Shown here: positions 47,084 to 59,346 of the stretch, one piece after another
Numbering within the stretch: the stretch's first letter is position 1
Layout: every line of letters begins with the position of its first letter
DNA from: Pseudomonas sp. AN-1
Lineage (GTDB): Bacteria; Pseudomonadota; Gammaproteobacteria; Pseudomonadales; Pseudomonadaceae
Reading direction: 5' to 3'
Assembly (NCBI RefSeq): GCF_034057115.1
Contig: NZ_CP139195.1
Location: 4,464,001-4,528,000 of the forward strand
DNA length: 64,000 bases
Position numbers and translations under genes: made by a program
Notes under the pieces: model-generated
What the model saw: the letters and a program-made list of their open reading frames with translations, nothing else
Told to the model about the DNA's origin: nothing
Database searches by the model: none

Positions 47084-47311
47084 ATGCTTGAAACCACCCT
47101 TGCGCAACTCGAAGGCCTTGTGGCCGATCTGCTGCAACAGAACCAGACCCTGAGCGCCAGCTGCCAGCAGCTCGAGCAGCAGCTGCGCCAGGCCCGCGAA
47201 GAAAACGAGAACCTGCAGATGGCCGCGCTGGAGCAGGAAGAGCAGCAGGCCGCCACCCTGGCCCGCCTGCAGGCGCTGATCCAGCGCGCCGGTGCCAGTA
47301 GCGCCGCATGA
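47084..47311 (+). CDS. TIGR02449 / ZapB-like coiled-coil protein
   Basis: A 75-aa protein that is one continuous coiled coil (LEGLVADLLQQNQTLSASCQQLEQQLRQAREENENLQMAALEQEEQQ). It is the small protein usually found directly before zapA in pseudomonads (TIGR02449 family) and may act like ZapB in division. Stop overlaps the zapA start (ATGA), so the pair is translationally coupled. Confidence 0.85.
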   Translation: MLETTLAQLEGLVADLLQQNQTLSASCQQLEQQLRQAREENENLQMAALEQEEQQAATLARLQALIQRAGASSAA

Positions 47312-47601
47312 GCGAGAGTGGCGTCCGTGTCCTGAAGATCCTCGGGATCGGCTACCCGGTCAGGGCGCCGGCCGGCGAGGAGGCGATCCTCGAGCAGGCT
47401 GCGGCCAGGCTGCAGGAGCAGCTCGACCAGAACCAGCAGCGCTTCCCGCGCGCCGGCAGCCACGAGCTGCTGGTGCTCACGGCGCTGAACCTGTGCGTGC
47501 CGCTGCTCAGACAGGAGGCGGAGCAGCGCGAGGCCGAGGAACGCCTCGCCGCGCTGGCGCAACGCATCGCCCGGCAGCTGCAGGGCGACGGTACGGCCTG
47601 A
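47308..47601 (+). CDS. zapA: Cell division protein ZapA
   Basis: A 97-aa FtsZ-ring stabiliser. The N-terminal beta-hairpin part VRVLKILGIGYPVRAPAGEEAILEQAAARLQEQL and the C-terminal coiled coil SHELLVLTALNLCVPLLRQEAEQREAEERL match ZapA. ATGA overlap with the upstream coiled-coil gene. A strong terminator follows within 20 bases, so no 6S RNA gene lies between zapA and the next gene. Confidence 0.92.
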   Translation: MSESGVRVLKILGIGYPVRAPAGEEAILEQAAARLQEQLDQNQQRFPRAGSHELLVLTALNLCVPLLRQEAEQREAEERLAALAQRIARQLQGDGTA

Positions 47602-52270: not shown

Positions 52271-52311
52271 CGAGCCGGCCACGGACGCGGCTGGGGAAGG
52301 TGGGGCGCGGG

Positions 52312-52338
52312 TGTTACCGCACCGGTGCCGGTGTAACG
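52312..52338 (+). promoter_or_regulatory. CbrB-like upstream activating inverted repeat
   Basis: TGTTAC (52312-52317) and GTAACG (52333-52338) form an inverted repeat about 100 bases upstream of the sigma-54 promoter. As I remember it, CbrB sites on crcZ have the form TGTTAC...GTAACA. A further half-site, GGGTAACC, is at about 52354. The position fits an enhancer for a bacterial enhancer-binding protein. Confidence 0.6.
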
Positions 52339-52435
52339 CCATCTGGGTCGGCGGGTAACCGATTGGCCGTCACCGGCAGCCCCGCGGGTGCGCCTTAAAT
52401 GGATAAGTCATTGATTTTAAAGGGATTTCAAGAGT

Positions 52436-52450
52436 TGGCACGGCACCTGC
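52436..52450 (+). promoter_or_regulatory. Sigma-54 promoter of the Crc-sponge sRNA
   Basis: TGGCACGGCACCTGC carries the -24 GG (52437-52438) and -12 GC (52449-52450) with the correct 10-base spacing, inside a match to the consensus TGGCACG-N4-TTGC. It places transcription start near 52461-52463. A sigma-54 promoter is the known arrangement for crcZ and crcY. Confidence 0.85.
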
Positions 52451-52460
52451 TTTATCTCTG

Positions 52461-52830
52461 GCACAACAAAAACAACAACGCTGAACCAACACAACAAAAA
52501 CAAGACGTAACGACTCCATAACAACAAGAACAACAGGGTGGAGGCGCAACAAACAGATTCTTTTGGAGAGGAGTTGCCCGTCAGGGATCTCCCCCCGACC
52601 GGACCGAGAACGATAAAACTGCCCCGAGGCAGCGGCCAGCACCGGTAGGACCCGCAAGGGTAGCGGCAACATCAGCGTCCAAAGGAATACGTTTGTTCTT
52701 GCGGTCCCGACTTGGGACTACCACCGGCCTCCGGCCGGGCGGGTTGCCAAAAACAACAACAAGCCCGTCAGCACAACAAGAACAAAGCATGACCGATTCG
52801 AAGGGGGAGCCCATGGGCTCCCCCTTGTGC
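52461..52830 (+). ncRNA. crcZ: Crc/Hfq-titrating small RNA, CrcZ/CrcY type
   Basis: An approximately 370-nt non-coding transcript is predicted. It begins GCACAACAAAAACAACAACG just after the sigma-54 promoter. At least five A-rich CA motifs are present: 52463-52479, 52491-52503, 52521-52536, 52749-52763 and 52773-52787. These are the Hfq-Crc binding sites that define the family. The middle is GC-rich and structured. It ends in the GGGGGAGCCC hairpin. When CbrAB is active it would sequester Hfq/Crc and relieve carbon catabolite repression. Whether it is the CrcZ or the CrcY paralogue cannot be told without the cbrAB locus. Confidence 0.88.
52803..52826 (+). terminator. Terminator of the Crc-sponge sRNA
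   Basis: GGGGGAGCCC (52803-52812) pairs perfectly with GGGCTCCCCC (52815-52824) and is followed by TTGTGCTGTCT. A preceding AA pair gives it some bidirectional character for the convergent EVE-domain gene. Confidence 0.8.
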
Positions 52831-52881
52831 TGTCTGCCTTCCTGATTCTGCCTGTGCTCCTGCCAGGCGGGTCCGTCCCGC

Positions 52882-53667: not shown

Positions 53668-54069
53668 ATGCTGCCCTATGATCGTCGTCTGAAACCGCTT
53701 TCGCGCCAGCTGCGCAACGACATGACCGACGCCGAGCGGCGCCTGTGGGCCTGCCTGCGCCGCAAGCAGCTGGGCGGTCTGCAGTTCTACCGGCAGAAAC
53801 CGCTGGCTGGCTACATCGTCGATTTCTACTGTGCCGCGGCGCAACTGGTCATCGAGCTGGACGGTTCCCAGCACCATGCGCCGGAGGCCATCGAATACGA
53901 CCGCCAGCGCACCCGAACGCTGGAGGCGCTGGGGCTGCGGGTGATCCGCTTCGACAACCGGCAGGTGCTGCGGGAGCTGGAGGGGGTGCTGGAGGTGATT
54001 CGGGAGGTGCTGGGAATCCCCCCCGGCCCCCCTTTTGCAAAGGGGGGAGTGGGACGGTGCGAGGTCTGA
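53668..54069 (+). CDS. DUF559 endonuclease-like protein with repeat-derived C-terminus
   Basis: A 133-aa protein starting at 53668 with AAGGAGG upstream. The DUF559/restriction-endonuclease-like fold is clear: LKPLSRQLRNDMTDAERRLWACLRRKQLGGLQFYRQKPLAGYIVDFYCAAAQLVIELDGSQH, with the catalytic-type D/E residues in VDFYC and ELDGSQH. Vsr-like relationship is known for the family. The last about 18 residues (GIPPGPPFAKGGVGRCEV) are encoded inside the first copy of an 83-bp tandem repeat, so the original C-terminus was probably replaced or extended. Confidence 0.85.
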   Translation: MLPYDRRLKPLSRQLRNDMTDAERRLWACLRRKQLGGLQFYRQKPLAGYIVDFYCAAAQLVIELDGSQHHAPEAIEYDRQRTRTLEALGLRVIRFDNRQVLRELEGVLEVIREVLGIPPGPPFAKGGVGRCEV

Positions 54070-54233
54070 TGGTCGGGGGCGTCACCCGCAGCGGCGGAAT
54101 CCCCCCGGCCCCCCCTTTTGCAAAGGGGGGAGTGGGACGGTGCGAGGTCTGATGGTCGGGGGCGTCACCCGCAGCGGCGGAATCCCCCCCGGCCCCCCTT
54201 TTGCAAAGGGGGGAGTGGAGCGGTGCGATTCCT
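54013..54233. repeat. 83-bp tandem repeat, about 2.6 copies
   Basis: Copies start GGAATCCCCCCCGGCCCC at 54013, 54096 and 54179, an exact 83-base period. Each contains the hairpin CCCCCCTTTTGCAAAGGGGG and, in full copies, GGTCTGATGGTCGGGGGCGT. The third copy is truncated and diverges after GGAGTGGAGCGGTGCG. The CCCTTTGCAAAGGG element is a common dispersed repeat in proteobacteria, and a divergent copy occurs at 54363-54400. Confidence 0.9.
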
Positions 54234-54404
54234 GATGTTCAGGCACAGAACGCCATTCGCCAACACGCTGCCGAACCATCTCTGCATTGGCAAAGAGGGC
54301 GTAGGTCTGTATGGGCTCCAGGTGTTCAGGCACAGAACACCATTCTCCAGTCCACCACCGAGCCATCCCCCCCTTTGCAAAAGGGGGGCTAGGGGGGATT
54401 CCCT
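54234..54404. repeat. Second direct repeat pair (GTTCAGGCACAGAAC) and CCCTTTGC-type hairpin
   Basis: A block reading GTTCAGGCACAGAACGCCAT at about 54237 recurs as GTTCAGGCACAGAACACCAT at about 54324. Both copies continue with similar CATTC-CCA...ACC sequence for about 50 bases. The region ends with CCCCCCCTTTGC...GGGGGG at 54363-54388. No gene is seen. The gap looks like degenerate repeat sequence. Confidence 0.75.
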
Positions 54405-57192: not shown

Positions 57193-57726
57193 TCAGATCC
57201 AACGGTCGATACCGATCAGTCCAGTCTGTCCCTGATAGTCACGGGCACTGGAGTAGCGCCAGTGCTCGGGCCGATCCACATAACCGCGCCGCAGCGGATT
57301 CTGGTGGATGTAATCCAGCTTCTGGCGCATGACGTCCTCGCTGCAGACCAGCTCGGCATGGCTGCCCTCCTGCCAGAGCTGGTATTCCCGATCCTGCTTG
57401 TGCGCTCGCTTGCTGAAACTCAGCCGCTGCAGGACCGACTCCGCACCGCGTTGCTGTAGGTCGTCGAGTATCCGGCGGGCCGTGTAGGACTTGAAGCTGC
57501 TGACACATCGGCCCAAGTCGGGAGCCTGCGCCAGATAGTGCAGGTGGTTTTCCATCACCACGTAGCCATACAGTCGCAGCCCCTGATGTGCCTGCTGGTA
57601 ACGCCAGCAGTCGAGCAGGATGTCGACCAGGGCGGGGCGGCTGAACAGTGGTAGCCACTCCATCACCGTGCAGGTGAGGAAGTGCGGTTGCGCGGGATCG
57701 GTAATGACGTAGCGGCTGCGGCCCAT
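57193..57726 (-). CDS. REP-associated tyrosine transposase (RAYT, Y1/HUH family)
   Basis: A 177-aa single-domain transposase. The HUH motif is YVVMENHLHYLAQAPD (His-x-His) and the catalytic Tyr is in MRQKLDYIHQNPLRRG. The N-terminus is RYVITDPAQPHFLTCTVMEWLPLF and the C-terminus WRYSSARDYQGQTGLIGID; both are typical RAYT features. It is flanked by REP palindromes on both sides, the arrangement called a REPtron. RAYTs are domesticated enzymes thought to mobilise REPs/REPINs. The start codon is at 57726. Confidence 0.93.
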   Translation of the reverse strand: MGRSRYVITDPAQPHFLTCTVMEWLPLFSRPALVDILLDCWRYQQAHQGLRLYGYVVMENHLHYLAQAPDLGRCVSSFKSYTARRILDDLQQRGAESVLQRLSFSKRAHKQDREYQLWQEGSHAELVCSEDVMRQKLDYIHQNPLRRGYVDRPEHWRYSSARDYQGQTGLIGIDRWI

Positions 57727-57778
57727 GGGATTCGTCCGTGAATCGGTTAGTGGGGCTGGCGTGGTACTTGGCTGATGG

Positions 57779-57897
57779 CTCCCACGCTCTGCGTGGGAGC
57801 CTAGCCGGCGACGCTCCGCGTCGCTACGGGGCTGCGGTTGTGCGCAGGACTTCGAGGTGGACGCGGAGCGTCGAGGGATGCGCTCCCACGCGGAGCG
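57779..57897. repeat. REP cluster at the 5' side of the RAYT gene
   Basis: CTCCCACGCTCTGCGTGGGAG (57779-57799) is palindromic. CGACGCTCCGCGTCG (57811-57825) follows, then GGACGCGGAGCGTCG (57859-57873) in the opposite direction, then GCTCCCACGCGGAGCG (57882-57897). The last unit is interrupted by the IS50-like element; its other half, TGGGAGCGATC, resumes at 59356. Confidence 0.88.
57889..57897. repeat. Left 9-bp target-site duplication of IS50-like element
   Basis: CGCGGAGCG immediately left of the terminal repeat, identical to 59347-59355. Nine bases is the IS50/Tn5 duplication length. Confidence 0.92.
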
Positions 57898-59346
57898 CTC
57901 GTCGTTATACACAAGTCCCGGTGAGCGCGTCGCGGGCCTCAAAAGCGATGACAAAGTCCCGCAACCGCTGCAGCCCGGTCCACATTGCCTTGGGCCCGGG
58001 TGGCCCATCGTGCTTGCGCCCCAAATAGCCGCCCAGGCTGGCTATCAGCATCACGACCTCACCCAGCGAGGGGGGAGTCTGTGGCGGCATGCAACGCTTG
58101 GCCACCATGTAGGCGGCCCGCCACTCCCGAGCCTCGAACACCAGCTCGCAGCTCAGACCTGGACAGCTTCGCCCCAACATCAGGCTGTACAGCACCCGCC
58201 ATGTCACGACCAGGTAAAGCCCGATGCAGGGCAGTAGTCGCTCTTCGGTCTCCAGCTGCAGTCGATTGATCTGGCAACCATTCTTCAGAACGTGGAAGTA
58301 AACCTCGATACACCAGCGCACGGCATACCATTCGACGACTGTAACGGCTTGGGCCAGGCCTTCCACCGGCAGGCTTGTCAGCAGCAACCACTCCAACGGC
58401 TCGACGCCCTCCGGCGGGTGCTCCTCGCAAGCCAGGACGGCATTGATCATGACCTCAGGCAAGCGATGCCCGACGCGGGACGGTGGTTGCAGCGTGAGAC
58501 TGGCAGAGCGCAGAGTGACCTGCGCCAGGCGGGCGGGACGTTTCGGGCGCGCCCGTACCTCAACCTCGACTTGCCCCAGGCTTGGCGTCGCCGCCACAGA
58601 GGCCCACAGCTTGTCGGCAGCACCGCCCAGCACGCGGCGATCCTGTGCTGCGCGCACAATCCATTGCGCCCGTGTCGTCGCAGCGACGTCTTCATACTCG
58701 ACGAACCACTCGTACAGATCACCTTCGGCGTCGGCGAGATTGACGACCTGGCTTTGCGGGAGCTGCCCCTGTAGCGCACAACTGCTCTGGTAGCTGTCGA
58801 TCCAGCGTCGACTTTCCTTCTCGTCCACTCCTTTTCCGCGCCGCTCCTTGCGTGGGCTTGGCTCATCACGCTGCCACCACTCGGCCGCCACCACGCCCAG
58901 ACAAACCCGCTCCGGTGTGAATGCCACGGTCGGATGGAGTCGGCGGGGATGCTTCTGCCTCTCCTTGATGGTGCCCACTCCCTTGGGGCCCAGATTCACC
59001 CACTTGTCTAGCTCGGTCGTGTCCTGGGCTAACAGCACCACGGGGCAGCACTCCATGCGCTGCAAGGTGGCATCCCGATGGGGGGCCAAAACTGTTTCGA
59101 AAGTGGCCTTCTCGTTATCGAAGAAACGGTAGGCCGCCATCGTCTCCGCCCAGCTCCGGCAAGCGGTAGGAATGCTGTTGCGTGGATCTGCACCCAACTG
59201 CTCCAGCAGCTTGGCGACACGCGCATTCAATCGCTCATCGCCCAGGTTTGCCGTGCGCATCTCTTCCTCAGCCCAGCTCGCGGATGACATCCCTGTACTC
59301 CCTCGGAAAACCTAAGATGGTGACTGAACTTGTGTATAACGACGAG
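57898..59346 (-). mobile_element. IS50/Tn5-like IS4-family insertion sequence, 1449 bp, complete
   Basis: Perfect 19-bp terminal inverted repeats CTCGTCGTTATACACAAGT (57898-57916 and, inverted, 59328-59346) match the Tn5 outside-end pattern CT-N5-TTATACACAAGT. A 9-bp duplication CGCGGAGCG flanks the element. One transposase gene fills it on the minus strand. The insertion lies within a REP palindrome next to the RAYT gene. Complete ends, exact duplication and an intact gene suggest a recent, possibly active copy. Confidence 0.95.
57905..59290 (-). CDS. IS4-family (IS50 group) transposase
   Basis: A 461-aa DDE transposase close in length to Tn5 Tnp (476 aa). The N-terminal DNA-binding domain is SWAEEEMRTANLGDERLNARVAKLLEQLG, as in the Tnp_DNA_bind family. 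The catalytic first Asp is in VVLLAQDTTELD (near residue 90), the second in VVNLADAEGDLYEWF, and the Glu in WCIEVYFHVLKNGCQINRLQLETEERL (YREK-like region). The C-terminal dimerisation domain ends ALTGTCV, with the stop inside the left terminal repeat. Confidence 0.94.
   Translation of the reverse strand: MSSASWAEEEMRTANLGDERLNARVAKLLEQLGADPRNSIPTACRSWAETMAAYRFFDNEKATFETVLAPHRDATLQRMECCPVVLLAQDTTELDKWVNLGPKGVGTIKERQKHPRRLHPTVAFTPERVCLGVVAAEWWQRDEPSPRKERRGKGVDEKESRRWIDSYQSSCALQGQLPQSQVVNLADAEGDLYEWFVEYEDVAATTRAQWIVRAAQDRRVLGGAADKLWASVAATPSLGQVEVEVRARPKRPARLAQVTLRSASLTLQPPSRVGHRLPEVMINAVLACEEHPPEGVEPLEWLLLTSLPVEGLAQAVTVVEWYAVRWCIEVYFHVLKNGCQINRLQLETEERLLPCIGLYLVVTWRVLYSLMLGRSCPGLSCELVFEAREWRAAYMVAKRCMPPQTPPSLGEVVMLIASLGGYLGRKHDGPPGPKAMWTGLQRLRDFVIAFEARDALTGTCV

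Follow-up and report, generated by a model that had tools for sequence, protein, structure and literature searches.

The small RNAs CrcZ and CrcY are driven by CbrB and sigma-54 and sequester Hfq/Crc (PMC6296734; PMC6292655; PMC8871633). Up to three copies of the family per genome are on record (CrcZ, CrcY and CrcX in P. syringae), and a review calls the linkage of crcZ to cbrB highly conserved (PMC8871633). Read-through from cbrB is reported to furnish basal CrcZ in P. putida and A. vinelandii, which would guard the cells against excessive repression (PMC6292655). The gene analyzed here lies in a 64 kb window, that is, the whole stretch of DNA under study (C1:4464001-4528000 of a complete one-contig genome of 4,609,694 bases or 4.61 Mb, here G000). 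It resembles CrcZ of P. aeruginosa, P. putida and A. vinelandii in its full-length covariance match, sigma-54/CbrB layout, A-rich motifs and length, but it is not located downstream of cbrB, where the window species has no crcZ. With CrcY of P. putida and A. vinelandii, and CrcX/CrcY of P. syringae DC3000, it has in common that a single genome carries additional, unlinked members of the CrcZ family, although its flanking genes differ and match none of the second and third copies compared from other genera. The RsmX/Y/Z RNAs of the Gac/Rsm system are likewise titrating sRNAs that occur in several copies and are controlled by a single two-component system, but they bind RsmA-type proteins through GGA motifs, unlike the A-rich Hfq/Crc motifs considered here.

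The window gene is very probably a self-contained, CbrB/RpoN-activated Hfq/Crc decoy, one of three dispersed paralogues in the genome of a soil Pseudomonas relative from which the ancestral cbrB-pcnB copy has been deleted. The RNA itself is an ordinary member of its family; what stands out is that the canonical copy has been lost.

Identity and extent of the sRNA

The covariance search with the Rfam CrcZ model that had been proposed in the initial annotation (RF01675, gathering score 95) returned a full-length match at 52463-52858 of the window (+ strand, model positions 1-398, 253.5 bits, E 1.8e-69), which is the sole Rfam match at gathering score within the 64 kb. The earlier reading of the feature as a strong Crc-family sRNA is thus borne out, and its genuine membership in the CrcZ/CrcY/CrcX family is fully supported by the sequence comparisons. 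A terminator-like hairpin (Table 1), although absent from the output of the consensus scan, predicts a transcript end near 52830, so that the final ~28 nt of the Rfam match would probably be flank.

Five non-overlapping AANAANAA motifs (at 52465, 52493, 52520, 52749 and 52775) agree with the earlier count of at least five A-rich CA motifs and are well above the chance expectation (mean 0.54, maximum 3, in 500 dinucleotide-preserving shuffles). As is characteristic of the family, these A-rich AANAANAA motifs, all five of them, fall in unpaired regions of the consensus fold, where two-sided changes are seen at 11 of 70 pairs. Four to six A-rich motifs at fixed spacing are present in each of the 27 copies found in eight genomes of the genus.

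Table 1. Coordinates of the window gene, its sequence elements and its paralogues (window positions, or contig positions where prefixed C1).
Feature	Position	Strand	Remarks
Duplicated unit at the window locus, promoter to terminator	52310..52845	+	DNA similarity to the same locus in G077/G085/G069 begins at 52310
CbrB half-site F1, TGTTAC	52312..52317	+	exact match
CbrB half-site R1, GTAACG	52333..52338	+	GTAAC core in 26/27 copies
CbrB half-site R2, GTAACC	52355..52360	+	GTAACG in most copies
AT-rich IHF-like stretch TTGATTTTAAAGGGATTTC, between half-sites and promoter	52411..52429	+	27/27 copies, small variations
Sigma-54 promoter -24/-12, TGGCACGGCACCTGC	52436..52450	+	TGGCA-N7-TGC at -27 in 27/27 copies
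CrcZ-family sRNA, predicted transcript ends	52463..52830	+	RF01675 253.5 bits; consensus fold
A-rich Hfq/Crc motif 1	52463..52479	+	unpaired in consensus fold
A-rich motif 2	52488..52506	+	unpaired in consensus fold
A-rich motif 3	52517..52537	+	hairpin loop
A-rich motif 4	52748..52763	+	hairpin loop
A-rich motif 5	52771..52787	+	unpaired in consensus fold
Terminator-like hairpin AAGGGGGAGCC..GGCTCCCCCTT	52801..52826	+	retained across copies; no long T run
Window copy	C1:4516463-4516858		253.5 bits
Other copy (L002)	C1:3048276-3048671		253.2 bits; between small gene beside FUSC_2 gene and PMT-family glycosyltransferase gene
Copy C (L003)	C1:473094-473489		244.1 bits; behind CoA-transferase gene

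Promoter and CbrB control region

Upstream of the RNA, the gene carries the control region typical of the family, with a sigma-54 promoter and three half-sites (F1, R1 and R2) spaced 20-25 bp. The promoter sequence TGGCACGGCACCTGC is present exactly where the initial annotation had placed it, and the upstream TGTTAC...GTAACG inverted repeat described there corresponds to F1 and R1; the third half-site, R2, had been missed. Relative to the RNA, the half-sites of the window copy are found at -151, -130 and -108 and the sigma-54 box at -27. These positions are closely kept in the genus: F1 lies 149-151 nt upstream of the RNA and the GTAAC core of R2 at -107 to -109 in 27/27 copies, while the R1 core lies at -128 to -131 in 26/27, the exception being copy G050a, in which R1 reads GTTACG in place of GTAACG. 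The same F1-R1-R2/IHF/sigma-N layout has been dissected experimentally in P. putida (PMC6296734), and by analogy with that work the AT-rich stretch may serve as an IHF site.

Loss of the cbrB-linked copy

A search with CbrB located a single intact cbrB in G000 (C1:2642364-2643764). No sRNA is found behind it, so the window gene is not a CrcZ in the strict sense of a gene between cbrB and pcnB. Between the cbrB stop codon and the start of pcnB lie 142 bp in G000 but 632 bp in G050, its sister genome. The ~490 bp lost extend from just beyond the F1 half-site to just beyond the terminator; the region preceding pcnB is kept, and a decayed F1 half-site remains as a scar (GGCGTTGCCC in G000 where G050 has GGTGTTACCC). 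The identical cbrB-pcnB junction occurs in G025, an independent draft assembly of the window species. The comparison of these junctions shows that the ancestral crcZ between cbrB and pcnB has been deleted in the window species, and the second copy beside cbrAB for which a genome search had been proposed is therefore missing behind an intact cbrB.

The expectation that crcZ usually follows cbrB is itself well founded. In 53/53 complete or near-complete genomes from six other genera, crcZ follows cbrB on the same strand, with a gap of 160-390 bp and, once, 1.47 kb. Within the genus, the same arrangement is seen in 6/8 genomes, both exceptions being those of the window species (G000 and G025), and the loss of the linked copy is exceptional against this background. 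The single long gap (1473 bp) belongs to G194, a complete genome of genus g15, and looks as if it arose by insertion.

An empty cbrB site is also what a simple relocation would leave behind, the original CrcZ gene itself having been transferred from there to the window locus. However, G050, G069, G077 and G085 carry both a window-locus copy and a cbrB-linked copy, on which ground simple relocation was rejected as extremely unlikely. Because four relatives have both copies, duplication came first and loss later, and redundancy among the copies is presumably the reason that the cbrB-linked one could be lost. The initial annotation had offered a relocated CrcZ or a CrcY/CrcX-like second copy, and neither quite fits a genome with three copies, none of them at cbrAB, and a window copy whose flanks are neither those of cbrB-linked CrcZ nor those of CrcY.

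Expansion of the family within the genus

The genus is Geopseudomonas (the P. linyingensis/sagittaria group; NCBI places P. sagittaria in Geopseudomonas), and the eight genomes compared contain 3, 3, 2, 3, 5, 4, 3 and 4 copies, 27 in total. The range of 2-5 copies compares with 1-3 elsewhere, where the counts are lower bounds. More than three copies were detected in only three of 248 family genomes, all of them members of the window genus, in a search whose stricter filters and few candidates scored per genome likewise make the counts elsewhere lower bounds. The three CrcZ-family genes of G000 are dispersed, with none beside cbrB; their control regions and RNAs align closely, and the RNAs are 85-86% identical.

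Comparison of the flanks of the 27 copies distinguishes the cbrB-linked locus Z (six genomes), the window locus A (G000, G025, G050, G069, G077 and G085), locus C (most genomes), locus B (G000, G025 and G069) and locus D (G009 and G069), the remaining copies being singletons. Locus C, which includes copy C of G000 (C1:473094-473489), has its flanks in common with the second copy of genus g15; these are the flanks that mark CrcY, and the window copy does not share them. One singleton is G050a, which lies at a site found in no other compared genome; G050 (strain K1, labelled S. stutzeri) has four copies. On contig C10 of P. oryzagri (L067), two CrcZ-family copies are found ~6 kb apart on the same strand, and one of them shares 92% identity with a third copy at another site of that genome, which suggests a recent duplication or conversion.

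In a tree of 43 RNAs, a single clade (100/99) unites the 27 genus copies and excludes the CrcZ and CrcY/X-type copies included from other genera. When the two second copies of genus g15 are added, they are placed within or next to the genus clade (joint group 100/99), and a topology that groups the genus copies to the exclusion of the g15 ones cannot be rejected (p-AU 0.19). These tests place the expansion in or just before the window genus. A single RNA origin for class C and the g15 second copy is rejected (p-AU 0.0008) in spite of their common flanks, a combination that points to gene conversion or repeated replacement. Copies have therefore probably exchanged sequence by gene conversion.

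Among the four species having A, C and Z (six species pairs), mean RNA identity is 90.0% for class A, 82.1% for class C and 80.3% for Z, so that, of these three locus classes, the window locus has the best conserved RNA. The higher value could stem from selection, but also from gene conversion or from a younger shared ancestry. This conservation, together with the retention of the locus in six genomes and with an intact promoter, half-sites and all five A-rich motifs, makes it very unlikely that the window gene is a degenerating or unexpressed duplicate while the other two copies do the work, even though one of three copies could be redundant and R2 of the window copy reads GTAACC rather than GTAACG.

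Trans partners and proposed mechanism

The trans-acting partners are encoded in G000: one match to CbrB (470 aa), Hfq, and one close match to Crc, 83% identical to a query that we take to be the P. aeruginosa Crc sequence. With a single CbrB match and one close Crc match, it is the sponge RNA that has been multiplied and not the control system, and the earlier suggestion of duplicated catabolite repression control was overstated to that extent. A second Hfq-domain match (G000:C1:357325-357513, in a 120-aa frame) is weak but above the cut-off (34.7 bits), and either the main Hfq or this second Hfq-like protein may be the partner of the sponge.

Since essentially every copy retains the cis elements, the A-rich motifs lie outside the paired regions of the consensus fold and the trans partners are encoded, the window gene is predicted to be transcribed in dependence on CbrB and RpoN, and its RNA to bind Hfq/Crc, by the same decoy mechanism as its relatives. 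When the preferred carbon source runs short, CbrA/CbrB would activate the sigma-54 promoter through the three half-sites, with IHF bending the DNA between half-sites and promoter. The resulting RNA of ~370 nt would offer its five unpaired A-rich motifs to Hfq (with Crc), and the titration of Hfq/Crc would free catabolic mRNAs from repression. With the linked copy deleted, the entire sponge supply would come from the dispersed copies.

Read-through from cbrB cannot yield sponge RNA in the window species because no crcZ lies behind it. A tentative reading is that the CbrAB-Hfq/Crc cascade has been rewired: the linked sponge and its read-through basal supply would have been abandoned, and the whole pool would now be set by dispersed copies with promoters of their own and copy-specific roles, foremost among them the conserved copy at the EVE locus. 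If the copies were not redundant but specialized, each for its own signal or level, this would refine the decoy reading without excluding it; such specialization accords with the differing upstream contexts, with the limited identity of the within-genome paralogues (only 85-86%) and with the distinct roles proposed for CrcZ and CrcY of P. fluorescens (reviewed in PMC8871633), but the CbrB/sigma-54 control region is laid out alike in every copy, and specialization is judged somewhat unlikely.

A natural species without the linked copy and with three unlinked ones makes the need for linkage directly testable, and a genus with 2-5 copies provides a natural series relating sponge RNA dosage to carbon catabolite repression. 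A search of the literature available without subscription found nothing joining crcZ with P. linyingensis or Geopseudomonas; within the literature searched, neither the expansion in the genus nor the deletion of the linked copy appears to have been reported.

The window locus and its surroundings

The neighborhood is as initially described, with an upstream gene for a 113-aa protein that has no Pfam match and a convergent, downstream EVE-domain gene (PF01878). These flanks match the class A loci of the genus only, and the window locus therefore appears to be genus-specific among the compared genomes. The A site is empty in G009 (P. oryzagri), where the distance from the 113-aa gene to the EVE gene side is ~93 bp versus ~590 bp, and no target-site duplication is readable at this empty site.

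Several repeats of ~50 bp, direct and inverted, are found at 54012-54404 of the window, and relatives carry them close to the corresponding position. One frame (57193-58008) may encode a REP-type transposase and another (57905-59290) a Tn5/IS4-like one, both named from the reading frames alone. In pseudomonads, 6S RNA usually adjoins zapA; no 6S RNA adjoins the zapA-like gene of the window (47308-47601), and the genome's single 6S match is located at C1:3403554-3403731.
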